Virus record (IMG/VR): IMGVR_UViG_3300009448_000013
Coordinates: 1-60,026 of that record
From: a virus
DNA: 60,026 nucleotides
Reading direction: 5' to 3' (one strand)
Shown: piece after piece, positions 8,224 through 51,329 of the stretch
Position numbering within the stretch: position 1 is the first letter of the stretch
How the letters are laid out: the number at the start of each line of letters is the position of its first letter
Position numbers and translations under genes: made by a program
The notes under the pieces: model-generated
Told to the model about the DNA's origin: nothing
Seen by the model: only the letters and a program-made list of their open reading frames with translations
The model's database searches: none

Positions 8224-8586
8224 ATGGCCTCACGACGCCGCACCCAATCGCTCGAGGCGATACGCGCCGCGCGCGCCGCCCAATACACCGACGCGGAACG
8301 CGAGCTCGTGACGGCGCCGTGTCGACTGCATTCCCGAAACGCGGTCTGCGATCAGTGCTGCGGCATGGCGCGAACGGATAGCCTCGGGTTCCCCCACCCG
8401 GCTTTCGCCAAGGGCCGCACCCGCTGCCGCCTCTGCCCCGTGTGCGGCAAGCTGAAAACGATCGACGAGTGGAACGTCGACGAGGTCGCGCTGCGCAAGG
8501 GCGAGGCGTGGCGCGGCGGGGTCTGCAAGTCGTGCACGGCCGCGGGCGACGGGCTCGCCTCGCTGCACCGGGAACTCGCGCCATGA
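8224..8586 (+). CDS. Zinc-binding hypothetical protein (multiple CxxC)
   Basis: 120 residues from ATG 8224, with GAAAGG about 11 bases upstream. Cysteine pairs recur: CRLHSRNAVCDQCC, CRLCPVCGK and CKSCTAAG. The arrangement suggests two treble-clef or HNH-like zinc sites (possibly a degenerate HNH-type protein). It overlaps the split methyltransferase gene by four bases. Confidence 0.6.
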   Translation: MASRRRTQSLEAIRAARAAQYTDAERELVTAPCRLHSRNAVCDQCCGMARTDSLGFPHPAFAKGRTRCRLCPVCGKLKTIDEWNVDEVALRKGEAWRGGVCKSCTAAGDGLASLHRELAP

Positions 8587-8888
8587 GGGGCATCGTGCGG
8601 CTCTGCCAGTGGTGTCGCTGCGAGCTCCCGGCGACGGCCCCCACCTGGCAGCGGCATTGCTCGAAAGCCTGCCGTCAACGGTGGTGGCGCGCCCGCAAGG
8701 TGTCGCTGATGGAGGGAGCCGACGGGCCCCCGAAACGCATCGCCTACGCCGACCCGCCGTTTCCGGGCATGGCTCGCAAATACTACCAGCACGAGCCGAC
8801 GTATGCGGGCGAGGTCGACCACCGGGCGCTGCTCGCCGAGCTCGTGACGTTCGACGGCTGGGCAGCGACGTGCGCCTCGTGGAGGTAA
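8583..8888 (+). pseudogene. DNA adenine methyltransferase-like gene, N-terminal half
   Basis: 101 codons. An N-terminal zinc knuckle (CQWCRCELP, then HCSKACRQRW) precedes a DPPF motif in IAYADPPFPGMARKYYQ, the catalytic motif of amino-methyltransferases. Next comes YAGEVDHRALLAELVTFDGWA, which in this phage family leads to the domain's second half. Here the frame breaks off right after DGWA with a few unrelated codons and a TAA. The missing half (starting near VFGLVNELG and reading TASWVKPHGVSGKTRGTHNA) lies on the minus strand at 50524-50912. The break is at a GGCAGCG shared in inverted orientation by both loci. As it stands the protein cannot be active. Confidence 0.75.
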
Positions 8889-9037
8889 ATCCGCGCGAGC
8901 TCGGCGAACAACTCCTCGGCAATGCCGGCAGCGCTATCAGGCTCGGCTGGGCCGCCTCGGCCCTGCGCGACGCGCAAGAGCGTTAGCCGGATGGCGTGAA
9001 AGCGCTCGGGCTTCATGTGGGGTAGCTGCTCGGTCAT
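8783..9037 (-). pseudogene. Split gene X, N-terminal half (minus strand)
   Basis: The ATG at 9037 has GGAGGC nine bases upstream (minus strand, 9052-9047). The protein starts MTEQLPHMKPERFHAIRLTL and continues convincingly to ELARIYLHEAHVAA near 8861. Beyond that the frame merely reads the antisense of the methyltransferase half until a stop at 8783. Joining the minus strand at GCTGCC (8866-8861) to the plus strand at 50907-50912 continues in frame as AKGLVDRALVEELAKS. Product unknown, not recognised. Confidence 0.65.
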
Positions 9038-9241
9038 TCGTCGGGTGCCTCCGATAAAAGACGGGCGACGACGACCGCTCGACGGGGGGGGAATCGAGTT
9101 CGGCCGCCGTCGCCCCGAAACCAAGAGAGCACGACGCTAGCGCGCAGCGCCACGATTTTTTCGGCGCAGCCGATCGATTTGTGTGCCGATTGCGCACGTG
9201 GACCCGAGGGCCTGCACGGGGTAATTTTGACCTGAACCGAC
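9038..9241. other. Divergent gap between gene X and terminase
   Basis: 204 bases without a credible gene. It holds the ribosome-binding site of gene X (minus strand, 9052-9047), a run of eight G (9084-9091) and a T6 run near 9160. It should contain the start signals of the 15-kb head and terminase operon, but I see no convincing consensus promoter. Confidence 0.4.
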
Positions 9242-9928
9242 ATGGCACACCGACAGCAGCGCGCGGGTCGCCCCAAACCCGATCGGTCACGCGCGCGCGC
9301 GACCTCACGAAAGGCCCCCCGCGCAACGCGGAAACCCGCCAAAAAGGCCCGATCCGGCAAGCGGAAGCCGAAACCGAAACCCGAGGCGCCGCCGACCGAG
9401 TTCGACGCTTGGCTCGCGTCGCTCACCCCGCGCGAACGTCGGGTCGACGAGGTGATCCAGCTGATGAACGCGGGCGCGTGGTTCGGGGCGACGTCACACC
9501 GGGCGCTCGCGAAAAAATGGGGCGTCCACCCGGGCACGGTCGAGCACGTGGCGACCGAGGCGAACCGGGTGATCCGGTTGCAGTTCCGCTACGACCGCGA
9601 CCCGGACGCTCGACGCGACGCGCTCGCGCGCACCGTCCGGAACTTTGAGGCGATCCATCATCTCGCCATGGTGAGCGGCAGCGTGTCGGGGCTGCGCGTG
9701 GCGCTCGAGGCGCAGGAGGCATTCGGGCGTTACGTGGGCATCGAGCCCCCGAAAAACGTTCGCGTCAAAACCGGCGACGACGAGTTCGAAAAGCTCACCG
9801 ACGAGCAGCTCGACGCGGTGTCGCGCGACGGCAGCGCGGCGATCCGGCGCATCAAGAACGAGCAAGACGCGGCCGTCGACGAGGGCGCGAGCCAAGCCAA
9901 GTCGCCCGCCGGCGGGGGCAACGCTTGA
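9242..9928 (+). CDS. Terminase small subunit-like protein
   Basis: 228 residues. The first 50 are Lys/Arg/Pro-rich. Then TEFDAWLASLTPRERRVDEV leads into an HTH-like stretch (HRALAKKWGVHPGTVEHVAT) and a helical oligomerisation region (LAMVSGSVSGLRVALEAQEA, FGRYVGIEPP). DNA-binding HTH plus helical core directly before TerL is the usual small-terminase arrangement. The stop overlaps a TTG start of TerL (TTGA). Assignment rests on position and HTH. Confidence 0.72.
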   Translation: MAHRQQRAGRPKPDRSRARATSRKAPRATRKPAKKARSGKRKPKPKPEAPPTEFDAWLASLTPRERRVDEVIQLMNAGAWFGATSHRALAKKWGVHPGTVEHVATEANRVIRLQFRYDRDPDARRDALARTVRNFEAIHHLAMVSGSVSGLRVALEAQEAFGRYVGIEPPKNVRVKTGDDEFEKLTDEQLDAVSRDGSAAIRRIKNEQDAAVDEGASQAKSPAGGGNA

Positions 9929-11499
9929 CGGCGCGCAGTCCGTTCGAGCCGGAGCCGTCGGCGCGCGAGGAACTCATGCTGCGCGCGCGAGCTCGGGTCG
10001 AGCTCGACAAGCGGCGGGCCGAGTTCGACCTGCGCAAGTTCATCGAGATCTATCAACCCCACTACCGCGACCCGACGCACATGGCCGAGGTGTGCGCCGA
10101 GCTCGACCGGTCGATGCGAGAGCCCGTGTACTGCGCGCTCGAGGCGCCGCCGCGGCACGGCAAAACGAGCGTGCTGCAAGCGCACTGCGCGCGGCTGCTC
10201 AAGTATCGGCAGAAACCCCGGATCGCATGGTGCACCTACGCGAACGACGTCGCCTATCGCCGCAGCCGCGAGGTGCGCGAGCTCGCGGCGCGCGCCGGGG
10301 TGTGGGTGGGCGAGGAGCAAAAGACGGCGCAGCAGTTCGACCCGAGCAAGAGCGTCGCTTTCTGGCAAACGAGCTCGGGCGGGCTGTTCATCGCGGGCGG
10401 CCGCCACGCGCAGTGGGTGAGCGAGGGGTTCGACCTCATCGTTTACGACGACGCGCTGAAAGATGCCTCCGAGGCCGAGTCGCCGACGTTTCAAGAGGAG
10501 GCTTGGAAAACGTACCGGTCCACCCTCATGAGCCGGCGCGAGCCACGCTGCAGCGTGTTCGTGAGCCATCAGCGCTGGAACGTCGAGGACGTGATCGGCC
10601 GCTTGCGCGACTGGCTCGAGAAGGATCCGGACGCGCCGCCGTTCGTGCTGATCACGTTGCGAGCGCTCGAAAACCTGCGAGTCGAGACCGACAGCAACGG
10701 CGTCGAGCGCATCCTCGGCGGCGATCCGCTCGACCCGACGCGCTACGATCTGCCGGCGCTCATCGAAACGGCGTCGCTGCTCGGTGACTACTTCTGGCCG
10801 AACTTTCAGCAAGACGTGACGCCGCGCGGGCGCAAGGTGTTCCCCGAGCTCGCGCGTTACAAGGTGCCGCAGAGCGTCGGCGCGGTGCTGCTCGTGAGCT
10901 GCGATCCCGGCATCGAGGGCAGCGAGACCAAAGAGGCAAAGAAGACCAAGCCGGATCCGAGCGGGCTCGTCGTCGCGTGGGCGTACCTCGTCGATGGGTT
11001 CAAGGTCGTGCACGATCGGCACGGCGTCGCTCGCCGCGTGCCGTGCAAGCGCGTGCAGCTCGATGTCATTTGGGCAGAGCAGCTATGGCTCGAACCGCTC
11101 GATCTGCTGCAGTTCCTGTTCGATCTGCAGCACGTGCATTATGTCGGCGCCCCCGTGCTGCTCGAGGAAGCGAGCGCATTCCGGATCCTCGAGCTCGTCG
11201 CGGCCCGGACGCACGAGCAGCTCGCGATCGTGCCTGTGACGCCGCGGGGCAGTAAGATGCTGCGATCGCTACCGACGGCGGCGAGTGCGCGCGAGCAGCG
11301 CGTGCGTGTGCCGGAACAGGGCGACTGGGTGCCAAAGTTTTGCAAAGAGGTGCGCACGTTCACCGGCAAGCCGGGTCGAAAAGACAACATGGTTGACGCA
11401 CTTACGCAGCTGCACGACTACGCCGAGTTCGCTCTCGGCATTCAAGAGGCTGGCGCAACCAGTGGCGGAACGAGTAGCATGGGCCGCTCAGGCTACTGA
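9925..11499 (+). CDS. terL: Terminase large subunit (packaging ATPase/nuclease)
   Basis: 524 residues from a TTG start overlapping the previous stop. Walker A is PPRHGKTS (75-82); Walker B is LIVYDDALKD (about 169-178); a coupling-motif-like CSVFVSHQRWN follows. The nuclease domain begins with VSCDPG (about 323) and continues to PGRKDNMVDALTQL, the third acidic site of the RNase-H-like fold. It pumps DNA into proheads and cuts it. Length is normal for a Mu/P2-like TerL. Confidence 0.92.
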   Translation: MTARSPFEPEPSAREELMLRARARVELDKRRAEFDLRKFIEIYQPHYRDPTHMAEVCAELDRSMREPVYCALEAPPRHGKTSVLQAHCARLLKYRQKPRIAWCTYANDVAYRRSREVRELAARAGVWVGEEQKTAQQFDPSKSVAFWQTSSGGLFIAGGRHAQWVSEGFDLIVYDDALKDASEAESPTFQEEAWKTYRSTLMSRREPRCSVFVSHQRWNVEDVIGRLRDWLEKDPDAPPFVLITLRALENLRVETDSNGVERILGGDPLDPTRYDLPALIETASLLGDYFWPNFQQDVTPRGRKVFPELARYKVPQSVGAVLLVSCDPGIEGSETKEAKKTKPDPSGLVVAWAYLVDGFKVVHDRHGVARRVPCKRVQLDVIWAEQLWLEPLDLLQFLFDLQHVHYVGAPVLLEEASAFRILELVAARTHEQLAIVPVTPRGSKMLRSLPTAASAREQRVRVPEQGDWVPKFCKEVRTFTGKPGRKDNMVDALTQLHDYAEFALGIQEAGATSGGTSSMGRSGY

Positions 11500-11547
11500 G
11501 CCGAATCGATACAACTCATAGCGGGCAACTCTCGGAGGCACACGGGA

Positions 11548-12189
11548 ATGGCTGACAGTTCAAGGCGGGGCGCGTTCCCGTCAAAACCAATTAGCGCGGT
11601 TGCGGCGGTCGAGGGCATGCTCGATCACGCTGAACAACTCTGGCCGGCGTTCCGCGCCGCCGTCTCGGCGCTCGGCGTCGCGGCAAGCCATCCGGGCTCG
11701 CGGGCGACGCTGCGCGAGCTGTGCGCGCAGCACGTCGAGCTCGGGCGCGAGCTCGGCCGCGCCGAGGGGTTCGAGACCATGCGAGCACAGCTCGTGAAGC
11801 TGCTCGACGAGGCGACGGCTAAGTTCCACGCCGACGCGACGGTGCTGCTCTGCCCCGATTGCGGGGCGCCCGTGGGGCCCGAGTGCCCGCACGTCGCGCA
11901 GCGCCTCGCCGACCCGCCGACGCCGGAAGCGCTCGACGCATGGCGCAACGGGCGGCGCCACCTTTGGGTGCTCGTGACGCATCAAGTGGGGCGCGCTGAC
12001 ATCGCGTCCAGCGAGGCGCAGGTCAAAGCAGCTGGCCGCCGCAAACTCTGCGAGAAAAACCTCGACGCGGTCGCCAACGCGCGGCCCGTGCAAGCTGTGC
12101 TCGAGGCCGAGCAACCCTCGCGCCGCAGCCTCCGACAGCGCCTCGGCGCAGCTCTCGCGGCGGGCGTCGCCTCGTGGGAACGGTCGTGA
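11548..12189 (+). CDS. Hypothetical protein with zinc knuckle
   Basis: 213 residues from ATG 11548, behind CGGAGGCACACGGGA, a ribosome-binding context also seen before 30535. The body is helical; a CPDCGAPVGPECPH zinc site lies at about 110-123, a motif common in phage and actinobacterial proteins next to a helical region. No function can be given. It starts a cargo block between terminase and portal. Confidence 0.6.
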   Translation: MADSSRRGAFPSKPISAVAAVEGMLDHAEQLWPAFRAAVSALGVAASHPGSRATLRELCAQHVELGRELGRAEGFETMRAQLVKLLDEATAKFHADATVLLCPDCGAPVGPECPHVAQRLADPPTPEALDAWRNGRRHLWVLVTHQVGRADIASSEAQVKAAGRRKLCEKNLDAVANARPVQAVLEAEQPSRRSLRQRLGAALAAGVASWERS

Positions 12190-12455
12190 AAGAGGCTCGC
12201 TTGAACGTGATGCCGCTCGCCGTCGACTTCACGCCGGCAGAGCGGCTGTTCGCCGAGTATCACCCCGAGGCCATCGAGGAGCTCGAGCAGTGCGTGCGCG
12301 ACGGCCTGATGACGCGCGACGAGGCGCTCACGATGTTTCGTCGGCTCGACGAACTCGCCGAGGGCGTGCTCGCCGGCGACTTCACCGAGGCCGTCGGGGC
12401 GCAGGTCGCGATAGACCTGGCAATCAACGCGCGCGACGGGCGAAAGGCGAATTGA
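12186..12455 (+). CDS. Small acidic helical protein
   Basis: 89 residues with a GTG at 12186 (GTGA overlap); an ATG lies at 12210. FTPAERLFAEYHPEAIEELE and CVRDGLMTRDEALTMFRRLD are amphipathic helices. Unknown family. Confidence 0.55.
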   Translation: MKEARLNVMPLAVDFTPAERLFAEYHPEAIEELEQCVRDGLMTRDEALTMFRRLDELAEGVLAGDFTEAVGAQVAIDLAINARDGRKAN

Positions 12456-12658
12456 TGACGCCAAGCGAGCGAGCCTGCACGCAATGCCTCGCCCGAGGTA
12501 TCCGCGTCACCGCGTGGTATGTCGCCGCCGACGGCGTGTGCCTCGAATGGTTCGAGTGCGACGAGCACGACGCGACCGACAATGTCGCCGGCGTCACCCG
12601 AACGACGCGCACGCCGATCGCCGAGTGGCGTGCCGCGCGGGGGCTCGTCAACGACTAA
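12455..12658 (+). CDS. Small Cys-containing protein
   Basis: 67 residues from an ATG that shares a base with the previous TGA. CTQCLARG and CDEHDATDNV may form a zinc site (C-x2-C, then C-x2-H). Overlaps the next ATG by TAATG. Function unknown. Confidence 0.55.
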   Translation: MTPSERACTQCLARGIRVTAWYVAADGVCLEWFECDEHDATDNVAGVTRTTRTPIAEWRAARGLVND

Positions 12659-13014
12659 TGCCGCGCCGTTGCATTCCCATGTACGACGCCGCCGGCAACT
12701 GGACCGGCAGCGTCACCGTCGACGTGCGAAACCACTACTGCAAGACGTGCGGCCGCGTGGCGACGCTGCAGTGCGATTACCCGACGAGGACGCGCGCCGG
12801 CAAAGCGCGCACGTGTGACGCCTGGATCTGCCAGGGCTGCGCGACCGAGGTCGGGCCCGATAGGCACCACTGCCCGCCGCACCAGCGCCAGCACGAGGCG
12901 TGGGCCGCGAAAGCCGACGAACAGCTGCGGCTGGCGCTGCCGGGCGCACCTGGGATCAATTCAGAGGCGGCGCAGGCCGTCGAAACGAAAGGGCAAAACC
13001 ATGACGAGGAGTGA
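12658..13014 (+). CDS. Zinc-finger protein (treble-clef-like)
   Basis: 118 residues. YCKTCGRVATLQCDYP, then TCDAWICQGCATEVGPDRHH and CPPHQRQHE give two paired Cys/His sites, as in small phage zinc proteins with an 'RTCDAPICRRCA' core. Possibly nucleic-acid binding. It overlaps the beginning of the lipoprotein gene's alternative start. Confidence 0.6.
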   Translation: MPRRCIPMYDAAGNWTGSVTVDVRNHYCKTCGRVATLQCDYPTRTRAGKARTCDAWICQGCATEVGPDRHHCPPHQRQHEAWAAKADEQLRLALPGAPGINSEAAQAVETKGQNHDEE

Positions 13015-13018
13015 GGGC

Positions 13019-14020
13019 ATGAAACGAGTTTGGGCACAATTGGGCGCGCTAATCTTGGCTCTCGGCTGCGGGGCATCGGGCGGCGACCAGCCACCGGCCG
13101 AGGTCGTCGTCGAGGCGCCGCCGGTGGAATACGCGATCGTCGACGGGGCCGAGCTCGGGGCGCAGGCGCCTCGGCTGCTCGCCGAGGTCACCACCGACGA
13201 GGGCGTGCGGGTGGCGTTTCACGAGGTGTTCGCTCGCGACGACGAGGCCGAGACGGTGTCGGCGTCAATCATCGTCGCCGAGTTCGGGCACGAGGGCAGC
13301 CCGGATCCCGTCGCCGAGGTGCACGCCTCGGTTGACGTGGCGCTCACGAGCGCCGAGCTGTGGGTCGCGCTCACCGGCACGCCCGACGAGCTGCCGACCG
13401 ATCTGGCGGCGCATCACGAGCGGGAGGTGTGGCTACTCGGGCGCACGAGCACCGAGTTCCTCGCGGCTCGCCGCGTGCCGCTCGAGCCCGTCGTGTTCGC
13501 GCAGGCCAAGGGCATCGAGCACAACTTGCAAGCAGATTCGTGGGACGACAACGCGACGTTTCTGCAGCCGTTGCCGGCCCATCAGCACACCGGCGTCATG
13601 ATCGGGGATTACCAGATGGCCGGGGTGTCGACGCCGGAGCCCAAACCGTTTTACGTGTACGCGTGCACGGGGCGGACGTCGGCCAAGACGGTGCACAAGG
13701 GCGTGCTGCCCGGCCTCGCCAACAATTGCGCCAAGACGCGTCAGACGGGTTGGGTGCGCGCCGGCATTGCCAACGTGCTCCTGAACTCGCTGCCCGTGGG
13801 CGTCTCGCGCGCGTTTCGCGTCGACCCCTATTACGGGCCCGGGGGTGGGCCCGTCGGCGACGCGTGGGTTGGCATGACGCACTTTTTCCTGGACGACGGG
13901 CAGTGGACGGTTTGGGGCTGGAACACGGCGACGTCGAAAGGCCTGTCGCTCGCCGCGTCCCGCGAGTCCCGCGCCGAGCCCTACGTGCGGCTTTACACCG
14001 GCGTGATGACCCAAAACTGA
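13019..14020 (+). CDS. Large putative lipoprotein (host-like cargo)
   Basis: 333 residues from ATG 13019, with GAGGAG ending eight bases before it; an in-frame ATG at 13001 would add six residues. The start MKRVWAQLGALILALGCGAS is a lipoprotein signal, with the lipidated cysteine at about 17 in a slightly atypical box (ALGC). The mature part is beta-rich and ends in a possible binding domain (GWVRAGIANVLLNSLPVGVS, HFFLDDGQWTVWGWNTATS). No enzyme motif. Its style resembles secreted proteins of delta-proteobacterial hosts, and it sits as cargo between terminase and portal. Surface exclusion is one guess. Confidence 0.6.
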   Translation: MKRVWAQLGALILALGCGASGGDQPPAEVVVEAPPVEYAIVDGAELGAQAPRLLAEVTTDEGVRVAFHEVFARDDEAETVSASIIVAEFGHEGSPDPVAEVHASVDVALTSAELWVALTGTPDELPTDLAAHHEREVWLLGRTSTEFLAARRVPLEPVVFAQAKGIEHNLQADSWDDNATFLQPLPAHQHTGVMIGDYQMAGVSTPEPKPFYVYACTGRTSAKTVHKGVLPGLANNCAKTRQTGWVRAGIANVLLNSLPVGVSRAFRVDPYYGPGGGPVGDAWVGMTHFFLDDGQWTVWGWNTATSKGLSLAASRESRAEPYVRLYTGVMTQN

Positions 14021-14023
14021 TCG

Positions 14024-14245
14024 ATGCCGAATTGCAAATCCTGCGGGGCCGCCGTGCGGTGGGTCAAGATGGCGGCCACCGGCAAGAGCATGATCCTCGA
14101 CGTGCAGCGCTCGGCGAGCGGCAACGTCGTCGTCAACGAGGACGGCTCGGGCGCGATGGCACTGCCCGGCGACGAGCGGCCCCGCTACGTGACGCACTGG
14201 TCGACGTGCCCGTTCGCCAGCACACATCGAAAGGCAAAGCGATGA
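14024..14245 (+). CDS. Small zinc-ribbon protein
   Basis: 73 residues: MPNCKSCGAAVRWVKMAATG, then a short beta hairpin and HWSTCPFASTHRK. This is the common phage zinc-ribbon type (C-x2-C near the start, W-x3-C-P near the end). Function unknown. ATGA overlap with the next gene. Confidence 0.6.
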   Translation: MPNCKSCGAAVRWVKMAATGKSMILDVQRSASGNVVVNEDGSGAMALPGDERPRYVTHWSTCPFASTHRKAKR

Positions 14246-14655
14246 AAAAGCAGGTAGTCCGATGCGACGGCTGCGCGGAGTCTTTCGACCCCGACGAGGT
14301 CGAGCACCTTGGCGATTGCGACCTGCACTTTTGCGACGCGTGCATGCCGGCGCGTGCAACGGTGCCGTGGACGCCCGGCATTGCGAGCGAGTGTTTCGGG
14401 CAGATCTCAGGCGGGGCCGTGATCCAGATGTTTCGTGTGATGCGAGCGCTGCGGCGGATCGCAGACCGCCAGCCGACGCCCGACACCGCGCAGGCGACGA
14501 GCTCGGATATCGCGCGCGAGTCGGGCGTCGACGAGCTCACCGTCAACGGCGCCATGATTCTCGCCGGCGAGCTCGGGCTCGTCGTATTCGAGCGCGCGCC
14601 GATCGAGGTGCCGCGGCCGCTGCTCGGCGCGTCGGGCTCACCGGGCGTCGCCTGA
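14242..14655 (+). CDS. Zinc-binding protein with winged-helix-like tail
   Basis: 137 residues. VRCDGCAESFDPDEVEHLGD with HFCDACM forms an N-terminal zinc site. The C-terminal half (SSDIARESGVDELTVNGAMI, LAGELGLVVFERAP) resembles a small winged helix. It could be regulatory, but nothing shows a target. Last cargo gene before the portal. Confidence 0.5.
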   Translation: MKKQVVRCDGCAESFDPDEVEHLGDCDLHFCDACMPARATVPWTPGIASECFGQISGGAVIQMFRVMRALRRIADRQPTPDTAQATSSDIARESGVDELTVNGAMILAGELGLVVFERAPIEVPRPLLGASGSPGVA

Positions 14656-14699
14656 CGGCTCGACGTGACGTAAGGCCCGGGCCGGGATAGTCTTGCGGG

Positions 14700-25487: not shown

Positions 25488-25496
25488 GCTCAAAGC

Positions 25497-39711: not shown

Positions 39712-39723
39712 AAGGATCCCACC

Positions 39724-40496: not shown

Positions 40497-40499
40497 TCG

Positions 40500-42942: not shown

Positions 42943-43292
42943 GCGCGGCCGACGAAATCAGCCCGATCGAATACGGGCAGGACCTCATCGTGCTCGCGGT
43001 GAGCCGCGAGACGCCCGTGCCCCGCGCGTTCGAGGCCGTGCTGATCGACGTCGATTATTCGCTCGCCCTGCCCGCCGGCGTCGTGCTGCCGCTCGAATTC
43101 ACGGTCACGAGCGAGAGCGGCGCGGCGACGTTCCAGCGCCGAGTCTTTCGCCGCCTACGGCCGAGCACGCTCGCGTTCGTGCCCCGGGAGGGCGGCAGCC
43201 ATCTCGTGCGGCTTGCCGAGCAGCATCATAACCGGTGGTTCGGAGCCATCACGATCGACGTCGAGGGCTCGCCCCTGAAAGCAGGCAATTAA
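42939..43292 (+). CDS. Beta-sandwich-like fibre protein
   Basis: 117 residues. PRAFEAVLIDVDYSLALPAG, VVLPLEFTVTSESGAATFQR and HLVRLAEQHHNRWFGAITID give another Ig-like strand series, related in design to the previous gene. Probably a structural partner. TAATG overlap with the large fibre gene. Confidence 0.55.
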   Translation: MSAADEISPIEYGQDLIVLAVSRETPVPRAFEAVLIDVDYSLALPAGVVLPLEFTVTSESGAATFQRRVFRRLRPSTLAFVPREGGSHLVRLAEQHHNRWFGAITIDVEGSPLKAGN

Positions 43293-44914
43293 TGGCAAAC
43301 GCGCTGTTCACAATCAACGACGACGCCGACGACGACGGTTACGACGCGACGCCATCCGAGGTGCTCGCGCTGCGGCTCAAGACGTTGCCGCCGGCCGGCG
43401 TCACGAGCGTGCGGTTCCAGATTTGGGACCCCGACGACTTCGACGAGACGCTCGACCCGATCCGCAACCCGCCGCGGCAGAGCAAGGGCGCGCCGCTCCT
43501 CGAGCTCGACAATGGCGTCGCCACGGGCACGAGCCTCTCGCCGGTCGCCATCGACGGCGAGGTCGAGCTCACGCTCGAGGCGAACGTGTTCGTCGCCTAC
43601 ATCATTCGGTGCGTCGTGAACAACGGCATGACGACGCTCGCCGATGGCCGCGTCGTCGTCGACCGGTCGCTGATTCACGAGCGCATGGTCGTCGTGCGCG
43701 AAAACGGCGTGCGCCCGATTGTGGCGACCGAAACCACGCAATACGAGCCCGACGGCTGGGCAGGCGCCTACAACGAGGGCGGGGGCCCGGCTGGCGACGA
43801 CGGCGGGTTTGGCGGCGCGATGTCGATCCCATACGTGTTCAGCACGACGACGACCGACACCGACCCGGGCGCGACGTTCATTCGGCTCGGCAATGCAACG
43901 CAAAACCTGTCGACCGTGATGCGCGCCGATCTGCTCGACGCGAACAACGTCGACGTGACGGCGCTGCTCGCGACGTTCGACGACTCCGCTGCCGGCGTCA
44001 AAGGCATCGCTCGGCTCGTGCATCGCGACGACGACAGTAAGCACCTGCTGTTTTACGTCACCGCGCTGTCGAGCCCGGCGGGATATCGCAACATCACGAT
44101 CGTGCCGATCGGCAGTTCGAGCGCGAGCCCGTTCGTCAACGGCGATCCGGTGGTTCTGTGCTTTGACCCGATGGGCGGCCCCGCCACGATCGGCAAATTC
44201 GACCCGACCGCAGCCGGCGCGATATTCACGTGCAATTTCGATTCGACGCTCATCGACGAGACGAATGCGAACAACCTCGTCGTCGACGCGGGCACCGTCG
44301 ACTTTTGCGAGGGCTGGCCCGGGCGGACGTTCGTGTATGTCGAGACGACCGGGCGCCTGCGCGTGGCAGCAACGCCGGCGCCTGCGGTGCTGCGGCAAGC
44401 GGGCGAGCTCACGATCCATTCGCTCGTTCTGCCCGACGAGGACCCGACCGCCGAGCGCGTGCTCGTCATGTGCGGCGCCGGCGGCGTCGACACCGACACG
44501 GCGAACAACACGCTCTATCAGCAGTCGATCCAAAACGTCGCCGCGCCGCTCTTGCAGCTGCGTGCGTTTCACGAGGAGGCCGCGGGCGCGAACGTCAGTT
44601 ACAACGTGTCGGTGCGCGATCAACGGGCGCGCGTGCCGGTGCTGTGGACTCAGGTTCGGCGGATCTCGGCGGGGCAGGCGTTCTACCAAAACTATGTCAA
44701 CGGCCGCCCTGCAGGCGCCGAGTCGGGGGGGCTCGTGCCGCCCACGGGCGGCGGAAACGCGGTGTTCGTCGTCGCCGCGGCTGGCTCGGGATCGACCGCC
44801 GGGCAGCGCCGAATCATCGGCGGGCAGCAACTCATCGCCGCGGCTCAAACGGCCGCGCAAGTGCTGGCGGTGCACAACCGAGTGATGGGGCCCGCTTTCG
44901 GTTTTTTAGTCTAG
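43292..44914 (+). CDS. Tail fibre/adhesin, unshifted product
   Basis: 540 residues from ATG 43292. N-terminal Ig-like strands (LRLKTLPPAGVTSVRFQIWD), a middle domain with YVFSTTTTDTDPGATFIRLG and a C-terminal domain (CNFDSTLIDETNANNLVVDA, GELTIHSLVLPDEDPTAERV, LQLRAFHEEAAGANVSYNVS) that looks like a concanavalin/LamG sandwich. It ends GFLV at a TAG immediately after TTTTTTA (44902-44908), an in-frame slippery heptamer. The following frame continues without a start, so this is the short form of a two-product gene. Confidence 0.7.
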   Translation: MANALFTINDDADDDGYDATPSEVLALRLKTLPPAGVTSVRFQIWDPDDFDETLDPIRNPPRQSKGAPLLELDNGVATGTSLSPVAIDGEVELTLEANVFVAYIIRCVVNNGMTTLADGRVVVDRSLIHERMVVVRENGVRPIVATETTQYEPDGWAGAYNEGGGPAGDDGGFGGAMSIPYVFSTTTTDTDPGATFIRLGNATQNLSTVMRADLLDANNVDVTALLATFDDSAAGVKGIARLVHRDDDSKHLLFYVTALSSPAGYRNITIVPIGSSSASPFVNGDPVVLCFDPMGGPATIGKFDPTAAGAIFTCNFDSTLIDETNANNLVVDAGTVDFCEGWPGRTFVYVETTGRLRVAATPAPAVLRQAGELTIHSLVLPDEDPTAERVLVMCGAGGVDTDTANNTLYQQSIQNVAAPLLQLRAFHEEAAGANVSYNVSVRDQRARVPVLWTQVRRISAGQAFYQNYVNGRPAGAESGGLVPPTGGGNAVFVVAAAGSGSTAGQRRIIGGQQLIAAAQTAAQVLAVHNRVMGPAFGFLV

Positions 44915-44941
44915 GCCCGTTCCAGCAATCGCTGGACGGGC
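44902..44941 (+). promoter_or_regulatory. -1 ribosomal frameshift signal (T TTT TTA plus stem-loop)
   Basis: The heptamer T-TTT-TTA lies in the correct phase (codons GGT TTT TTA GTC TAG). After a six-base spacer comes a stem of 11 pairs with one bulged T: 44915-44919 and 44921-44926 pair with 44931-44941 (GCCCG, TCCAGC / GCTGGACGGGC), loop AATC. This is the classic arrangement of a -1 signal. Confidence 0.75.
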
Positions 44942-46290
44942 TGCACAGCCACAACGACCAAGAGCAACCAGGCCCGCTCGTCGACGCGCTCGCTCTCGGG
45001 TTCGCGTCGATCGAGGTCGACGTGCACCTGACCGGCGGCGAAATCCGCGCGACGCACAGCTTGCCCGGCACCGCCGGCGTCACGCTCACGTCGCTTTACC
45101 TCGCGCCGCTCGCCGCGATGGATCCCGACGAGCATCCCGCGATGCTTTGCATTGACCTGAAAACGTCGCCGAGCGACGCCCTGTTCACGGCGTGCGTGGC
45201 AGCCATCGCGGCCCACGCCACGTTCAACGACGGGCACGTGCAGTTCGTGTTCACGGGCAATCGCCCCGTCGCGCCGACGGCGCACCCCGCGCACGTCGTG
45301 TTTGGCAGCGGCGGCGGGCCCGTGGCGGCGGCGCTCGTCGACGCCGAGGTCGCCGTCGTCGAGGTCGATTACACGTCGTTTTCGACCTGGAATGGCGTGG
45401 CTCCGATCCCCGACGCCACCAAGCGCACGCTCGTGCAGCTCGCCGACATGGCGCACCGCGCGGGCAAAATGCTGCGCGTCTATTTTGGCCCGGCGACGGT
45501 CACGGCGTGGAACGAGTTCCGCGACGCCGGCGTCGACTTGATCCAGCCCGGCGGGCAACACCCACCGGGTTTCGATAACATCGACCTGCTCGCGCTTTGG
45601 TTCGCCGGGGGGTGGATATTCGACGGCGAGAACGACGGCGTTTCGATCGGCGACGTGTACGACTTCGAGCGCACCGACTCGTTCTCGCTCTCGGGACGGT
45701 TCAACTCGTCGTCGGCAACCACCCAAAACCTCATCGGCAAGACGAGCACGGATACGACGGCGCGCGGCTACATCGTCCAGCTTCGCAGCGACGGCGCGGT
45801 AGGCTTTCAGCTGAACAACGACGTCGCCAGCGGCGTCAATTCGCTCGCTGTGCGAACCACGTCGACCGCGTTCGCCGACGGCCGCGAACACCATTTTCTC
45901 ATCACCTACAACGGCACGAGCGCGCCCGGCGGGGTGGTGATCTACATCGACGGCCAGGCCGAGGCCTTGACGACGATCAACAATTCGCTGTCCGCCACGA
46001 CCGTGCAGAACGATCCGCTCGTGCTCGGAAACCGGCAGGATGGCGCGCGCGCGCTCGCCGGCAGCCTGCGCGAGGTCGCGGTGTGGACGGGTGTCCTCTC
46101 GGCGCTCGACGCGGCAGAGATTCACGACGCGACAGATCTGGACAGCGTTGCCGCCGGCCCTAGCCTGCTGAGCTGGTGGCGCTTTGACGACGACGACCAG
46201 GCCATCGCGAGCGGCGTCGTCGACCAGGGTGGCGGCGGCTTTCACGGCACGCCGTTCGGCGGGCTCGAACCGACGCCGCCCCGCGTCTGA
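44908..46290 (+). CDS. Frameshift extension of the fibre: GDPD/PLC-like plus LamG-like domains
   Basis: 460 residues reached only by the -1 shift (whole product 999). No ATG, GTG or TTG precedes its first conserved motif. LHSHNDQEQPGPLVDALALG, then FASIEVDVHLTGGEIRATHS and LYLAPLAAM match the AIM6/GDPD-PLC-like TIM barrel, with the H-S-H-N-D catalytic region, E-x-D metal ligands and a second His. About 225 residues later a LamG-type sandwich follows (FSLSGRFNSSSATTQNLIGK, HHFLITYNGTSAPGGVVIYI, LVLGNRQDGARALAGSLREV). It would add a lipid- or teichoic-type phosphodiester hydrolase and a sugar-binding domain to some fibres. Confidence 0.7.
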   Translation, partial: SLGPFQQSLDGLHSHNDQEQPGPLVDALALGFASIEVDVHLTGGEIRATHSLPGTAGVTLTSLYLAPLAAMDPDEHPAMLCIDLKTSPSDALFTACVAAIAAHATFNDGHVQFVFTGNRPVAPTAHPAHVVFGSGGGPVAAALVDAEVAVVEVDYTSFSTWNGVAPIPDATKRTLVQLADMAHRAGKMLRVYFGPATVTAWNEFRDAGVDLIQPGGQHPPGFDNIDLLALWFAGGWIFDGENDGVSIGDVYDFERTDSFSLSGRFNSSSATTQNLIGKTSTDTTARGYIVQLRSDGAVGFQLNNDVASGVNSLAVRTTSTAFADGREHHFLITYNGTSAPGGVVIYIDGQAEALTTINNSLSATTVQNDPLVLGNRQDGARALAGSLREVAVWTGVLSALDAAEIHDATDLDSVAAGPSLLSWWRFDDDDQAIASGVVDQGGGGFHGTPFGGLEPTPPRV

Positions 46291-46332
46291 AAAACCCTCA
46301 AGTTCCCCGGGCACAATCCGTTCATGTTCGAC
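46291..46332 (+). promoter_or_regulatory. Leaderless-type promoter element (copy 3)
   Basis: CCCTCAAG (TCAAG from 46298) and GTTCAT from 46320 are 22 bases apart. ATG 46333 is 13 bases after that G. It decides the start of the next gene (46333 rather than 46324) and marks it as an independently expressed cassette within the late region. Confidence 0.55.
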
Positions 46333-47058
46333 ATGAACGGATTGCTGATTGCCCTCGTCGTGCTGCTCACTGCGGTTAACGCGTCCGCTGCCCCAAAGGG
46401 GCACAGCCACAACGACTACGGGCGCGCGGCGCCGCTCGCCGAGGCCATCGCCGCCGGCGTCGCCTCGATCGAGGTCGACCTCGTGTATTCCGCCGGCAGG
46501 CTGCTCGTGTGCCACACGGCCCGAGAATGCTCGCCCGAGCGGACGCTAGAAACACTCTACCTAGCGCCGCTCGCTGCGCTCGGCGCCGACCGCCCCGCTC
46601 GCCTCACGCTGCAGATCGAAACCAAGGTGACGCACCCGAGCCTCGCCGGCGTCGCGATCCCGGGCGTCTTTCACGGCGTGCTCGCGGCGTTCGCGGCGCG
46701 CCCCGAGCTCGCCTCGTGGGTCGATGTCGTATTCATCGGGCAGCAATACTACCCGCCGCCCGCGCCCACGCCGGCGGGGTTCTCGTTTCGCGCCGACCCC
46801 GACACGGGTCTCGTGTCCGTTGAATGGCCGTTTGCGTGGGAGGGGCATGGCGATATGCCCGCCGCCGATAGGAGCGCACTCGAGCGTCTCGTCGACGACG
46901 CGCACTCGAGGGGCGCCCGGCTGCAGCTCTCGACGCACCCGATCGAGCTGTCGGGCGACGTCGTCGCCGTGTGGGATGCTCTCGCCGACGCTGGCGTCGA
47001 CACCATCAGCACCGACGATCCGTTGCTGTTCGCCGCTTGGCGCGCCCAAACGTTCTGA
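46333..47058 (+). CDS. Secreted GDPD/PLC-like phosphodiesterase
   Basis: 241 residues from ATG 46333, set by the upstream promoter; ATG 46324 would add three residues. MNGLLIALVVLLTAVNASAA is a signal peptide. Mature start KGHSHNDYGRAAPLAEAIAA, then GVASIEVDLVYSAGRLLVCH and ERTLETLYLAPLAALG parallel the barrel fused to the fibre upstream. A C-terminal ISTDDPLLFAAWR completes the barrel as in AIM6-type proteins. It would act in the periplasm or outside, on phosphodiesters of lipids or polymers. Its monocistronic control suggests a moron expressed apart from the virion genes. Confidence 0.7.
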   Translation: MNGLLIALVVLLTAVNASAAPKGHSHNDYGRAAPLAEAIAAGVASIEVDLVYSAGRLLVCHTARECSPERTLETLYLAPLAALGADRPARLTLQIETKVTHPSLAGVAIPGVFHGVLAAFAARPELASWVDVVFIGQQYYPPPAPTPAGFSFRADPDTGLVSVEWPFAWEGHGDMPAADRSALERLVDDAHSRGARLQLSTHPIELSGDVVAVWDALADAGVDTISTDDPLLFAAWRAQTF

Positions 47059-47201
47059 GCTCTGCTATCGTCTCACTTGCCCGGTCGCCGATCGGGGTCG
47101 AGGTGCACTGTCGTCGGTCAGAGGCATCTCGTTCGGAGTGGCGTCGAGCGTGCCTGCTTGCCGTTTCACTCACTGCAAGGCGACCGGGCAATGTAACGCC
47201 C

Positions 47202-47546
47202 ATGTCTGGATCCCTTTACGTCGGAGCTGCCGCCCCCGTCTCGACGACGTTCGACGTCACGAGCTCGGGCGCGCCGTTTGACCTGTCGGCGATCACGAGC
47301 GCGCGGCTGCTCGTGCGGTTCGCAAACGGCGTCACGGCCACCTGGGCGGCCACCGTGGGGCCTGTTCCCCCCGACGTGGCCGAGACGGCGACGCGTGCGC
47401 GTCTCACTCGCGTGCACGCCGCGGGCGACATCCCGGTGGGCGCCGAGGGCACGGCCCGCATTCGTGCCGACATCACGCTCGACGGCGTCGCCGAGCCGGT
47501 GCGCACGCGGTGGCGAGCGGTGGAAGTGATGCGCGAGGGGGTGTGA
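47202..47546 (+). CDS. Small beta-rich virion protein
   Basis: 114 residues from ATG 47202. MSGSLYVGAAAPVSTTFDVT, then FDLSAITSARLLVRFANGVT and GTARIRADITLDGVAEPVRT fit the BppU-N/upper-baseplate type domain of phages. The 143 bases upstream (47059-47201) show no gene. TGATG overlap with the next micro-gene. Confidence 0.55.
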   Translation: MSGSLYVGAAAPVSTTFDVTSSGAPFDLSAITSARLLVRFANGVTATWAATVGPVPPDVAETATRARLTRVHAAGDIPVGAEGTARIRADITLDGVAEPVRTRWRAVEVMREGV

Positions 47547-47671
47547 TGGATCCCGTCACGGCCGAGCTCGTCGAGGGCGCGTCGCTGTCGGGCCCGCTCG
47601 TTGAATCGGTGCAACTCACGGCCGAGCTCGTCGAGGGCGCTCACCTCACGGCCGAGGTGATAGCCGACTGA
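47546..47671 (+). CDS. 41-residue repeat protein
   Basis: ATG overlaps the previous stop. The sequence repeats TAELVEGA(S/H)L twice and ends LTAEVIAD, a short beta-strand repeat. Comparable repeat micro-proteins accompany baseplate or fibre genes in other phages. Function unknown. The reading frame is supported by the in-phase repeat. Confidence 0.5.
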   Translation: MDPVTAELVEGASLSGPLVESVQLTAELVEGAHLTAEVIAD

Positions 47672-47695
47672 ACGCGCGAGGGGTACACTCGGGGC

Positions 47696-47962
47696 ATGAT
47701 CCATTGGCTCGCCCTGCTCGTGCTCGCTCTGCTCGGTGTGTTCGCTGCTTGCTCGGCAGCCATCCCGGACGTGCAGCAACACATCGTGCTCGTGTGCGAG
47801 GGCACGTCGCAATCGGTTGCCGACGACATCGGGCCCGAGATGCGCAAGTTGCTCGTCGCCGCGTGCGTCGAGTCGGTCGAGCGAGCTCTCGCCGACGTCG
47901 TCGCGGGCGTGCCGCCCGGGCCCGCGTCGCCACTGCAGCTCGGCGACGCGGGGCCGCCATGA
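47696..47962 (+). CDS. Small putative lipoprotein of the lysis block
   Basis: 88 residues. MIHWLALLVLALLGVFAACS is a lipoprotein signal (FAAC, Cys at about 19). The mature 70 residues hold VCEGTSQ and AACVESVERALADV and a Pro/Gly-rich end. It could be an outer-membrane spanin-like partner, given the neighbouring amidase, but no Rz1 signature is seen. ATGA overlap with the next gene. Confidence 0.55.
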   Translation: MIHWLALLVLALLGVFAACSAAIPDVQQHIVLVCEGTSQSVADDIGPEMRKLLVAACVESVERALADVVAGVPPGPASPLQLGDAGPP

Positions 47963-48381
47963 GTGATCGCATCGAGGTGCAGTGGTGCACGACGTGCGGC
48001 GCGCGATTCACTGCTGAGGAAATCGCCGATGCGAGCGGCTGCCCCAAGTGCGACACGAAAGGCGTGCCGTGCGGAGCCGATCGCGACCTGGTCGTCGAAA
48101 TCAACTGGCACGAGCTCAGGGTGCTCGGCATTTGGGCGAGCAATTGGGCGCACCGGGCCGACGTCGACAAAAGCGGAGAGGACGCTCTGCGCGGCATTCT
48201 CTCGCGGCTCGAGCGAGCGTTTCCCCATCTACCCCCGCTCACGCTCGGGGGTGAAGTGCGGCAAATTCGCCAAAGCGTTGTCCTCGCCGAGGTGTCGACG
48301 AACATTCCCGGCGAGGGCGTCGTCGTCGTGCACGGCCCGGGCGCCGTTGGCCACGGTCGCCGACGTGAGGTGACGCCATGA
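47959..48381 (+). CDS. Zinc-ribbon hypothetical protein
   Basis: 140 residues. WCTTCGARFTAEEIADASGC with PKCDTKGVPC forms an N-terminal zinc ribbon. INWHELRVLGIWASNWAHRA is a widely seen phage motif ('W.EL..L..WA..WA'), followed by a helical and beta C-terminus. Function unknown; position in the lysis block may be incidental. Confidence 0.6.
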   Translation: MSDRIEVQWCTTCGARFTAEEIADASGCPKCDTKGVPCGADRDLVVEINWHELRVLGIWASNWAHRADVDKSGEDALRGILSRLERAFPHLPPLTLGGEVRQIRQSVVLAEVSTNIPGEGVVVVHGPGAVGHGRRREVTP

Positions 48382-48956
48382 CGGCCGCGTTCAAGCTGCG
48401 CCTGCCTCACCTCGTCGTGCCGGCGACGAACTGGCAAAAGAACGTCGGGCCCGTCAAGAAACGGCACCTCGTGATCCACGTCATGCAGGCGCCCGAGAAA
48501 GACGGGACGGCGATGGCGGTCGCGAACTATTTCGCGCGACAGAAGACAACCGACAAGGTCAGAACGAGCGCGCACTATTGCGTCGACTCGCGCACGATCG
48601 TTCAGTGCGTCGCGCCCGAGCGCATCGCGTGGCACGCGCCGGGGTGCAACTCGACCGGCATCGGCCTCGAGCTTTCCGGCTACGTGAGCCAAACCAAAAC
48701 GCAATGGCTCGACGAGTTCGGTAAGAAAATGCTCGCGCTCGCAGCGCCACTCGCCGCCGAGCTCTGCCAGCACTTTCAGATCCCGGTCGAGTTCGTCGAC
48801 GAGGAAGGCTTGATCGCGGGGCACGCCGGCATCACGACGCACGCCAAGGTTTCGCTCGCGTTCAAAAAGTCGACCCACACGGATCCGGGCCCGGGGTTTC
48901 CGATGACCGAGTTCCTCGACATGATCCGGGTGCACACCGATGCCGGGCGGGCGTGA
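48378..48956 (+). CDS. Endolysin: N-acetylmuramoyl-L-alanine amidase (Amidase_2)
   Basis: 192 residues, ATGA overlap. Zinc ligands of the PGRP/amidase_2 fold: His34 (LVIHVMQ), a middle SAHYCVD (His66) and HTDPGPGFP (His and Asp, about 167-169). WHAPGCNSTGIGLELSGYVS is the usual substrate groove. It cuts between muramic acid and the peptide. No signal peptide, so a holin or other release is needed. Confidence 0.85.
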   Translation: MTAAFKLRLPHLVVPATNWQKNVGPVKKRHLVIHVMQAPEKDGTAMAVANYFARQKTTDKVRTSAHYCVDSRTIVQCVAPERIAWHAPGCNSTGIGLELSGYVSQTKTQWLDEFGKKMLALAAPLAAELCQHFQIPVEFVDEEGLIAGHAGITTHAKVSLAFKKSTHTDPGPGFPMTEFLDMIRVHTDAGRA

Positions 48957-49327
48957 AGTTCCGGGCCGTGGCGCTCGTCGCCGTCACTTGCGCCTCGTGG
49001 GCGGCGGTGGCGATTGCGCAGGCGGCAGCGGCCTCGGCGGCGCCGACGTTAGCGTCGTCCAGCGGCGACCCGATCAATGCGCTATGGTCCCTACTCGGGT
49101 CGAGCCCGACGGCGTTCGTGCTGTGGCAGTGGGCGAAGGGCGAACAGAAGGATCGGCGCGATGCAGTCTCGAAAATGGTGCACCTGTTCGAGGCGGACGT
49201 GGAGCACAAGGTGACGGTGCGAGAGCGTCTGAAAGGCCAGGACGACGCCCTGGCCAAGACGCTGGAAGTCTTGCAACGGATCGAGCGCTCGCTCGGCTCT
49301 CGATTCCCCGGGAGACCGGGCGCGTGA
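48953..49327 (+). CDS. Possible holin (two hydrophobic segments)
   Basis: 124 residues, GTG start. Segments at about 5-25 (AVALVAVTCASWAAVAIAQA) and about 43-60 (ALWSLLGSSPTAFVLWQWA) are followed by a charged coiled coil (RDAVSKMVHLFEADVEHKVT). Two membrane helices next to an amidase fit a class-II holin, though the first could be a cleaved signal. Assignment by place and shape. Confidence 0.45.
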   Translation: MKFRAVALVAVTCASWAAVAIAQAAAASAAPTLASSSGDPINALWSLLGSSPTAFVLWQWAKGEQKDRRDAVSKMVHLFEADVEHKVTVRERLKGQDDALAKTLEVLQRIERSLGSRFPGRPGA

Positions 49328-49536
49328 TTCTCCGGCTGCTCGCGCAGCTGTTCAATCGGGCGCCAAAATCCTCGCCCCTGCCGGCGAGCGAGGCCGAGCG
49401 CCGCATGAACAATGCGCTGCGCCGAACGCAAAACGAGACCCGAGCTCTCGCGCACGACGGCGTCGAGCTCGCGCAACGGATCCGGCGCAATAGCGCGGCC
49501 GGGCACAACGTGTTCAGGGGAAAGCCGACGACATGA
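49324..49536 (+). CDS. Small basic protein of the lysis block
   Basis: 70 residues, GTG start in a GTGA overlap. A short hydrophobic N-terminus (VILRLLAQLF) and a helical basic body (AERRMNNALRRTQNETRALA). It may be a spanin-like or regulatory component; no evidence beyond context. Confidence 0.45.
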   Translation: MILRLLAQLFNRAPKSSPLPASEAERRMNNALRRTQNETRALAHDGVELAQRIRRNSAAGHNVFRGKPTT

Positions 49537-49961
49537 CCGAACCGATCCCGCTCAGCGAGCGGCCGCCGCTCACGCCGCTACAGCGCGAGATCGTCGCGAG
49601 CGCCGTCGACGGGCTCGCCCCCGTCGTGCAGGCCGCCCTCGTGCAGGCCCTCGCCCCCGTCGTCACGACGTGGGACGCGCGCAGCAGCGACATGCTCGAC
49701 GTGCTCGCCGAGGCGGGCGACACCCGGCGGCAGGTGCGCGTCGCGGCCAACACCATCAAGCTCGCGGGCTGGCTCGGGGTGCTCGCCCTCGTCGGCGGCA
49801 TCCTCGGCGTGTACGGCGTGCTCGAGCGCGAGCGGGACGAGCGGCGCAAGTTCCGCGAGGTCGAGCAGCTGCGCCGCGAGGATGCCGCCGAGCTCGTCGT
49901 CGTGCGGCTGCGGGCCGAGGCTCGGCGCATCGAGGCGACCTGCGCCAAGGCCGCCCAGTGA
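49533..49961 (+). CDS. Membrane protein with C-terminal coiled coil
   Basis: 142 residues, ATGA overlap. One membrane helix (GWLGVLALVGGILGVYGVL, about 79-97) is followed by an extended charged coiled coil (ERERDERRKFREVEQLRRED). This shape suits an inner-membrane spanin or a pinholin-like protein in the lysis block. GTGA overlap with the lysozyme-like gene. Confidence 0.5.
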   Translation: MTEPIPLSERPPLTPLQREIVASAVDGLAPVVQAALVQALAPVVTTWDARSSDMLDVLAEAGDTRRQVRVAANTIKLAGWLGVLALVGGILGVYGVLERERDERRKFREVEQLRREDAAELVVVRLRAEARRIEATCAKAAQ

Positions 49962-50527
49962 GCACCCTTGCCCCGTGGCTGCTCTCGCTGGCCCTCACCT
50001 GGCCGTCGCCCCCCTCCCACGTCGAGCCCGCCGAGGAACGGCGCGAACGGCTCGCCGTGGCCGCCGGGGCGCTCGCGTGGGCGGTCGACCGCGCCGTGAT
50101 GACGGGGGCGCTGCCGGGCAGGGAACGGCGATTGTGGGCCGCCCTGGCCTTGGCAACCGTGCGCCGCGAGTCGGGCAACCTGGATCGGGGGGTGCACTCG
50201 GGCCGTCGACTCGGCGACCGGGGCCGCTCGATCTGCTTTGGCCAAATCAACCGGGGTAACGTCCCGGCCTACGGCGGCGCCGACAGCTCGTGGCGGTCGC
50301 TCGCCGGCGTGGGCGACGACGCCTCGCGGCGGTGCGCGTGGGCGGTCGTGTCGACGCTGGCCCGGGCTCGCGACTACTGCCTGCGCAAGGCGGCCGCCTC
50401 CGAGCTGCACGGCGCCGTTCTGAGCGTGTACCTGCGGGGCCACGGCTGCCGGGTGAACCGCGAGGGACGCGTGCGGCTCGCCCTCGCCCGGCAGTCCCTC
50501 GCGACGCTCGCCTCCATGGGCGACTAG
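49958..50527 (+). CDS. Secreted lysozyme-like/lytic transglycosylase
   Basis: 189 residues from GTG 49958. The N-terminus (LAPWLLSLALTWPSPPSHVE) is a signal-like segment. TVRRESGNLDRGVHSGRRLG with Glu71, then SICFGQINRGNVPAYG match the catalytic Glu and G-x-x-Q-I strand of SLT/lysozyme-like folds. CLRKAAASELHGAVLSVYLR follows. It would cut glycan strands, a second lytic activity beside the amidase. Its TAG overlaps the stop of the convergent methyltransferase half. Confidence 0.65.
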   Translation: MSTLAPWLLSLALTWPSPPSHVEPAEERRERLAVAAGALAWAVDRAVMTGALPGRERRLWAALALATVRRESGNLDRGVHSGRRLGDRGRSICFGQINRGNVPAYGGADSSWRSLAGVGDDASRRCAWAVVSTLARARDYCLRKAAASELHGAVLSVYLRGHGCRVNREGRVRLALARQSLATLASMGD

Positions 50528-50912
50528 GCGATCGGTACTGAATCGACGACGTCGCCCGGCGCCGGCAGCGACCCGTTCGCCGCCCGCCAGCAACGCGTTA
50601 CCATCTCGGAGCCCGGGAACTTGTCGACGAGCTCGTCGCCGGCGGCCATGCCGAGCAGTTCGAACAACCAGGTGCAGAACTTTCGAGGCTTGCGGCCAGG
50701 AAGCGAGCTGCCGCCCTTGCGTGCGTTCGGCGTCAGGATCCAGTCGCGCCGCCCGGGCTGGCACCGTCGAGCCGGCTTGTATAAGACGGGCTCCCACGCG
50801 TTATGCGTGCCTCGCGTTTTGCCCGACACGCCGTGAGGCTTCACCCACGAGGCCGTGCGCACGTCCTCGATGCCGAGCTCGTTGACGAGCCCGAACACTT
50901 GACGACGCTGCC
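50524..50912 (-). pseudogene. DNA adenine methyltransferase-like gene, C-terminal half (minus strand)
   Basis: From about GTG 50898 the frame reads VFGLVNELGIEDVRTASWVK, PHGVSGKTRGTHNAWEPVLY, GRRDWILTPNARKGGSSLPG and RKPRKFCTWLFELLGMAAGD to a TAG at 50524. This is the second half of the DPPY-type phage methylase family (WVKPH, WEP, GRKP, LFELLG, ELVDKFPGSE). It lacks the DPPF half, which is at 8583-8864 on the plus strand. At the shared GGCAGCG the two halves are one base out of frame, so an indel near the junction or a slightly different crossover is needed. Confidence 0.72.
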
Positions 50913-51329
50913 GCGAAAGGGCTCGTCGACCGCGCCCTCGTCGAGGAGCTCGCCAAGAGCATCGGCCCCATGAGCATCGACGTCGTGTACCCCGACCGCG
51001 ACGGCAAGACGTATGCCGAGCAGGTCGCCCTCGACGCGCTGCACGGTTGGCTACACGACCCCCTCGGAGATGGCGAACTCATCGAGGCCGCCGCCGAGTT
51101 CCACGCCGAGCTCGCCGACCGCGACGGCGGCGCCGAGTGCAAGGCGCTCGACTCGTGCGTCGAGCCAGGCGCCGCGGTGCGCCGGGCCTCGGTCGCCCTC
51201 GTCAAACCGGCCGAGCTCAAAGCTGCGTTCGCCGCCGTTTACGATGCCGCTCGATGCGCCATCGTCGTCGAGACCTTGCGCCCCGTGCTCGACCGCTACG
51301 TCGCCCTTTACGAGGTGTGCCGACGATGA
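50907..51329 (+). pseudogene. Split gene X, C-terminal half
   Basis: The frame has coding character from GCT GCC at 50907: AKGLVDRALVEELAKSIGPM, then SIDVVYPDRDGKTYAEQVAL and CVEPGAAVRRASVALVKPAE to a TGA at 51327-51329. It has no start at its beginning; ATG 50970 could give a 119-residue product. Coding sense before that ATG shows it is the tail of a longer gene. Its N-terminal half with ribosome-binding site is at 9037-8861 (minus) and joins in frame. Family not recognised. Confidence 0.65.

Follow-up and report, generated by a model that had tools for sequence, protein, structure and literature searches.

Probable inversion of the late module in a 60-kb phage genome, with a split gene at either end

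The IMG/VR virus record IMGVR_UViG_3300009448_000013 (60,026 bases, treated as linear and referred to here in its full length as the window) contains two places, about 42 kb apart, at which a gene fragment on one strand adjoins a fragment on the other. The preliminary description of this DNA had read the four fragments as the reciprocal halves of two genes, one encoding a methyltransferase-like protein and one here called gene X, separated by a single inversion. Are these fragments indeed the halves of two genes, did one inversion part them, and by which route? The late genes between the two places lie in the opposite orientation to their counterparts in two related phages, in which the methyltransferase-like gene is whole. 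We consider it likely that the late module (8.86-50.91 kb) was reversed with respect to the early genes by one inversion, and that this inversion arose by illegitimate recombination.

Split genes and orientation of the late module

Open reading frames (ORFs) were obtained with a codon-usage caller written for this analysis, which called 90; the three touching the joints were left out, leaving 87. The main features are the following.

8583..8864, plus strand: N-terminal half of a DPPY-type methyltransferase-like protein (positions 22-111 of a profile of 141 homologues, 113.8 bits)
50524..50922, minus strand: C-terminal half of the methyltransferase-like gene (profile positions 121-236, 119.4 bits; ALSRQRRQVFG... 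to FPGSEMVTRCW...)
8866..9037, minus strand: putative N-terminal half of gene X, with its ATG at 9037 (ORF, codon usage and upstream sequence; GGAGG before the ATG)
50919..51329, plus strand: putative C-terminal half of gene X (open frame, codon signal to about 50925; its stop overlaps the next ATG as ATGA)
8855..8875, no strand: left inversion joint (end of the methyltransferase similarity; change of best frame at 8850-8865)
50900..50928, no strand: right inversion joint (switch of coding strand between 50880 and 50940; identical in a second contig, G001)
8865..50912, no strand: inverted segment, comprising the late module (small-terminase-like, large terminase, portal, head, sheath, tape measure, baseplate and lysis genes) and half a gene at each end (orientation in the two relatives, PHROG annotation)

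The N-terminal half of the methyltransferase-like gene overlaps the upstream ORF by ATGA and reads MRGIVRLCQWC...YADPPFPG...YAGEVDH...LVTFDGW, including a CxxC...C region; the DGW ends at 8861, and the similarity to the family stops after it. The C-terminal half is found 42 kb away on the opposite strand, as a minus-strand ORF that ends at 50524, reads ...ALSRQRRQVFGLVNELGIEDVRTASWVKPHG...DELVDKFPGSEMVTRCW and is open upstream to ALS at 50922; when it is scored alone, the aligned part starts at its residue 12. The two halves correspond to near-consecutive parts of the profile, and the nine positions between these parts coincide with the joint. Both parts are present in one open frame in Curtobacterium phage Elener, where they form gp27, annotated as a hypothetical protein.

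An alignment of Elener gp27, the N-terminal half from the window and a Xanthomonas phage relative was used as query to collect family loci. The set consisted of 149 loci (the best 80 of 557 viral loci, 67 genome loci and two phage records), and both halves are contained in one ORF at 144 of them, in a set that is biased to intact genes because the viral loci were ranked by similarity to the whole homologue. The five exceptions are L005, L113, L156, L157 and L158, and the profile was built from 141 of the 144 whole-gene loci. In Xanthomonas phage PBR31 (L005, 2995-3557), the N and C parts of the methyltransferase-like gene are in different frames. The name methyltransferase is tentative and depends on the DPPY and FxGxG motifs: YADPPF is present in the N-terminal half and FPGSE in the C-terminal half, and the profile places the window protein in the family of Elener gp27. 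A Pfam scan of both halves gave no match.

The evidence for gene X is of another kind. Its N-terminal half starts 205 nt from the start of the small-terminase-like (TerS-like) gene and diverges from it, and the cut is near codon 57. The first in-frame ATG, GTG or TTG after a stop in the C-terminal half is at 50970, yet the codon signal reaches about 50925, so this half looks truncated. A search of phage records, which did not extend to bacterial genomes and plasmids, gave nothing convincing (one match at E 4), X had no match in the two relatives described below, and its N-terminal half had none in viral contigs. The relatives do carry a gene diverging from the TerS-like gene at the same place, at 53345-54559 in one (G002, 404 aa) and at 30137-31168 in the other (G003, 343 aa); it was rejected as an orthologue of X, since local alignment was no better than with shuffled sequences. 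The reciprocity of the fragments and their coding signal suggest that X was once a single gene.

Two of the family loci belong to the related contigs. IMGVR_UViG_3300049930_000038 (G002, also L042; 60,016 bases) and IMGVR_UViG_3300012914_000001 (G003, also L047; 60,630 bases) have many other genes in common with the window. They were found both with an alignment of the large terminase subunit (TerL), together with one distant 27% match, and with a late-gene alignment, together with G001; a single-sequence scan with TerL gave no match. A further contig, G004 (60,016 bases), was rejected as a relative, being without a TerL match.

For 38 of the 55 ORFs of the late segment a match is present in G002, and likewise for 38 of 55 in G003; in each relative all 38 are in the opposite orientation, and the internal order of the block is kept (rank correlation -0.9998 in each). 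Among the 32 ORFs outside the segment, 13 have a match in G002, 12 of them in the same orientation, the exception being the ORF at 8224-8586, with a 37% match to a different place; nine have a match in G003, all nine in the same orientation. A contiguous block is thus reversed with its internal order conserved. Among the 38, the ORF at 37224-37595 (minus strand) is probably a spurious antisense ORF.

In both relatives the methyltransferase-like gene is whole and closes the early operon, meeting the late operon tail to tail at its lysis end. Next to the small-terminase region, the late operon is divergent from an early gene. The G003 contig is opened within late genes and the G002 contig within early genes, which implies a circular map; on such a map, turning the 42-kb block amounts to turning the other 18 kb.

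These results bear out the core of the rearrangement put forward in the preliminary description. The reciprocal halves at both joints were confirmed by the ORFs, by codon usage and, for the methyltransferase, by the profile, while for X they are suggested by the reciprocity itself, X having no homologues; a single inversion of about 42 kb is strongly supported, and the relatives with uninverted order that it had proposed to look for exist.

The four pieces might instead be independent genes whose likeness to split genes is accidental. The C-terminal half of X could begin at the ATG at 50970, and the lack of homologues found for X would fit this; for the methyltransferase, the reading is already contradicted by halves that match near-consecutive parts of a family encoded by one ORF at 144 of the 149 loci, and the gene block has the opposite orientation to that of both relatives; only X could still be two genes. 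That no inversion took place is hardly credible.

Bases at the two joints and the route of the inversion

Coding frames at the joints were determined with a 60-nt codon-usage scan. At the left joint, plus frame 0 is best up to 8850 and minus frame 2 from 8865; at the right joint, minus frame 1 is best at 50805-50880 and plus frame 0 from 50940. The expected frames lose at 8640-8670, 8925-8955, 50700-50790 (in part) and 50895-50925. The left breakpoint is most likely at GGGC (8860-8863), the alternative being GGCAGCG (8861-8867). Promoter scans found none at either joint; a terminator scan found none at the right joint and three at the left, compared with 0.8 expected.

The preliminary description gave a special role to GGCAGCG-W-CGT, and inverted copies of this element do occur at the two joints; but the longest common run within +/-15 nt is 7 bases, and at least 7 common bases occurred within +/-15 nt in 10.8% of 4000 random position pairs, in a test centred on the match. 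As a recombination site, GGCAGCG was rejected: the identity is at chance level, and the methyltransferase joined there scores 10.6 bits below the protein joined at DGW/ALS. No long inverted repeats link 8.86 and 50.91 kb among the 25 longest of 313 inverted pairs, so that the long inverted repeats at both ends expected for an inversion by homologous recombination are lacking. A weak direct repeat near both joints (8789-8835 and 50999-51045; 47 nt, 66% alike, one of five scattered copies) was rejected as the cause, as direct repeats do not give inversions.

The frames are informative about the route. Counted from the two starts to the two stops, the coding sequence amounts to 1261 nt, that is, 3x420+1, and therefore no conservative reversal restores both genes: none of 3000 joint position pairs put both in frame, in a test which presupposes a single gene X and no subsequent change of frame. 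If the two genes were originally intact, either 1-2 bases were removed or added in the course of the inversion or a frame was altered afterwards. The earlier statement that X rejoins exactly and the methyltransferase one base off is true at GGCAGCG, but the methyltransferase is in frame at DGW/ALS, which the relatives favour, and a flip mending both genes does not exist among the pairs examined. ALS directly follows DGW in 88 of the 132 homologues having DGW, and the C-terminal half in the window reads ALS at its joint end. The protein joined at DGW/ALS scores 245.8 bits against the profile, compared with 235.2 for the protein joined at GGCAGCG, into which one residue was inserted by hand to bridge the frame. 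There is thus modest support for the methyltransferase rejoining in frame at the family's commonest motif.

Might the late module instead be switched between two orientations by a programmed or site-specific inversion? The short inverted identity at the joints would suit such a switch, as would the fact that X is in frame after a conservative flip at GGCAGCG. Against this, neither restoration of both frames nor sites alike beyond chance, as a conservative site-specific system would leave, was found; both relatives show one orientation, and no invertase, integrase or transposase match was present in 50 of the 87 called ORFs, which lie away from the joints, the other 37 being unscanned; a recombinase might also be supplied by the host. 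Invertible segments of the type of the Mu G segment are a few kb long and are turned conservatively by a serine invertase at defined sites. The Mu G segment is likewise a phage segment that inverts, whereas no sign of a serine invertase or of defined sites was found among the 50 ORFs scanned and at the joints of the window. Site-specific inversion is therefore not supported, and a programmed switch seems to us highly improbable. The same low expectation attaches to a population holding the late module in both orientations, in which a switch operating without a canonical invertase would toggle early/late read-through, the methyltransferase-like protein and X.

Illegitimate recombination is favoured because no conservative flip mends both frames and because the common bases are at chance level. 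A single inversion would have broken the methyltransferase-like gene directly behind its DGW and gene X at about codon 57, most likely by end-joining or microhomology annealing with the loss or gain of 1-2 bases, possibly assisted by the RecE/RecT-like pair of the phage itself. That the half genes are still open suggests a recent event. The polarity is indicated by the two relatives and by the whole gene. Both proteins would presumably have been lost, and early transcription would now run toward the late operon, having formerly run against it.

The genes of the right arm would lose the divergent region beside the TerS-like gene. The repeated start elements that several of them carry may soften this loss, so that it might be tolerated. 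Seven start-associated elements were seen, approximately TCGTTCAAGG-N-CGTTCATAGGGG(G)CATG, six of which run straight into CATG.

52377, 53319, 53725, 54318, 54615, 54805 and 55061: start-associated elements

Elements judged similar by eye are present in G002 (56553, 57218) and G003 (31504, 32523). The elements are possible promoters of early genes that are leaderless or nearly so.

The second contig and the reality of the joints

G001 (IMGVR_UViG_3300025123_000007, 34,990 bases) covers window positions 16,935-51,912. Over 34,978 aligned bases it is mismatched to the window at two positions, 28,296 and 34,299 of the window; the 12 bases at its start are unaligned. It crosses the right joint unchanged and stops short of the left joint.

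This contig bears on the possibility of an assembly error, raised from the start, or of a library artefact, in which the real genome would have the order of the relatives and both joints would be false products of assembly or amplification. The half genes are undamaged ORFs, as expected if the true genome is intact, both relatives have the uninverted order, and the record stands without read support. Two reciprocal joints would be required, however, which are complementary to within about 16 bp, and the longest inverted identity at the joints is just 7 bp. For paired false joins of this kind, an assembler would normally require a repeat of k-mer length; with a longest common run of 7 bases, there would have been no long k-mer to mislead it. 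Since G001 has the same right joint, an assembly error has become less likely, and we regard an artefact of either type as unlikely.

Several points weigh against a real inversion as set out above. Both joints are known from assembled contigs, not from reads; the left joint is witnessed by this record alone, and G001 could share its sample or reads. An uninverted contig of the same phage was not found in the viral contig scans, and the scan with the methyltransferase N-terminal half found no other viral contig. The polarity is set by just two relatives. Gene X is without found relatives, and comparisons of its halves with the gene at its place in G002 and G003 gave shuffle fractions of 0.30-0.71. 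Losing two genes at once would be costly unless both are dispensable. As for the DGW/ALS junction, the ALS end adds just 1.1 bits to the C-terminal half alone (119.4 versus 118.3), and the junction gives a DGW-to-WV spacing of 25, found in one of 91 homologues measured; the usual spacings are 24 (42 of 91) and 27 (40 of 91), and the spacing of 22 at the GGCAGCG joint occurs in none of the 91.

Gene content and comparison with known rearrangements

The proteins encoded in the window match PHROG families for RecE-like, RecT-like, TerL, portal, head protease, major head, tail sheath, tape measure, baseplate, endolysin, RuvC-like and DnaC-like proteins, and an AAA ATPase was matched in Pfam. The tail sheath gene implies a contractile tail. 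The window is best explained as the complete or nearly complete genome, about 60 kb with a circular map, of a contractile-tail phage. A tRNA scan found none. Landmarks of the late operon are the following.

9242..9928, plus strand: TerS-like gene, first in the late operon (52-54% identity to the TerL-adjacent genes of G002 and G003; named by position only)
9925..11499, plus strand: terminase large subunit (phrog_38, E 1.8e-41; 63-66% to G002 and G003, where it is on the minus strand)
48378..48956, plus strand: endolysin, near the end of the late operon (phrog_12609, E 5.6e-29)
49958..50527, plus strand: final ORF of the late operon, overlapping the methyltransferase C-terminal half at the stop codons (CTAG)

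The TerS-like gene has neither a PHROG nor a Pfam match. Collagen-like coding repeats are present at 16800-17210, directly after the portal gene, and contig G001 starts within them. The tail region contains three 99-nt tandem units at 37232-37528 (the second and third 87% and 70% identical to the first), and the antisense ORF over these units is weakly matched (40-42%) in both relatives. A sequence coding for HSHND...SIEVD occurs twice, at 44943-45021 and 46401-46479, in copies that are 76% alike and about 1.46 kb apart; the second is within an ORF with a below-cutoff match to glycerophosphodiester phosphodiesterase, and neither ORF has a match in G002 or G003.

Among the matches listed in our literature search, nothing concerned this phage or named metagenome 3300025123, that of G001. 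Inversions of large phage blocks have already been published, and the window is a fresh-looking, base-resolved example. In Pseudomonas phages PseuGes_254 and Wonh (PMC11512268) and Boevelstad (PMC11780129), a nucleotide-metabolism block of about 17-18 kb is inverted compared with related phages; in the parts of these reports available to us, the origin of the inversion is left unexplained or uncommented, and the former, unable to explain it, found neither repeats nor mobile elements where the segment begins, and AT-repeats of a putative origin where it ends. As in those phages, a functional block is inverted in a myovirus. There, according to the same portions of the text, it is the nucleotide-metabolism block, AT-repeats stand at one end and split genes go unmentioned (PMC11512268, PMC11780129). 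In the window, unlike in the phages so described, it is the late block, and the joints are inside readable ORFs, for one of which whole homologues are present in relatives. The breakpoint bases are therefore directly legible, and they point to little common sequence and a change of 1-2 bases. If the inversion is real, a single step can bring the whole late operon of a phage into line with its early genes and leave the phage abundant enough for assembly; if it is an artefact, collections of viral contigs can contain false joins that turn most of a genome round, and split genes expose such joins. Rearrangements engineered in T7 offer a parallel: the reordered genomes can be propagated, with lasting fitness loss, although they were engineered and are no natural inversion (PMC3737178).

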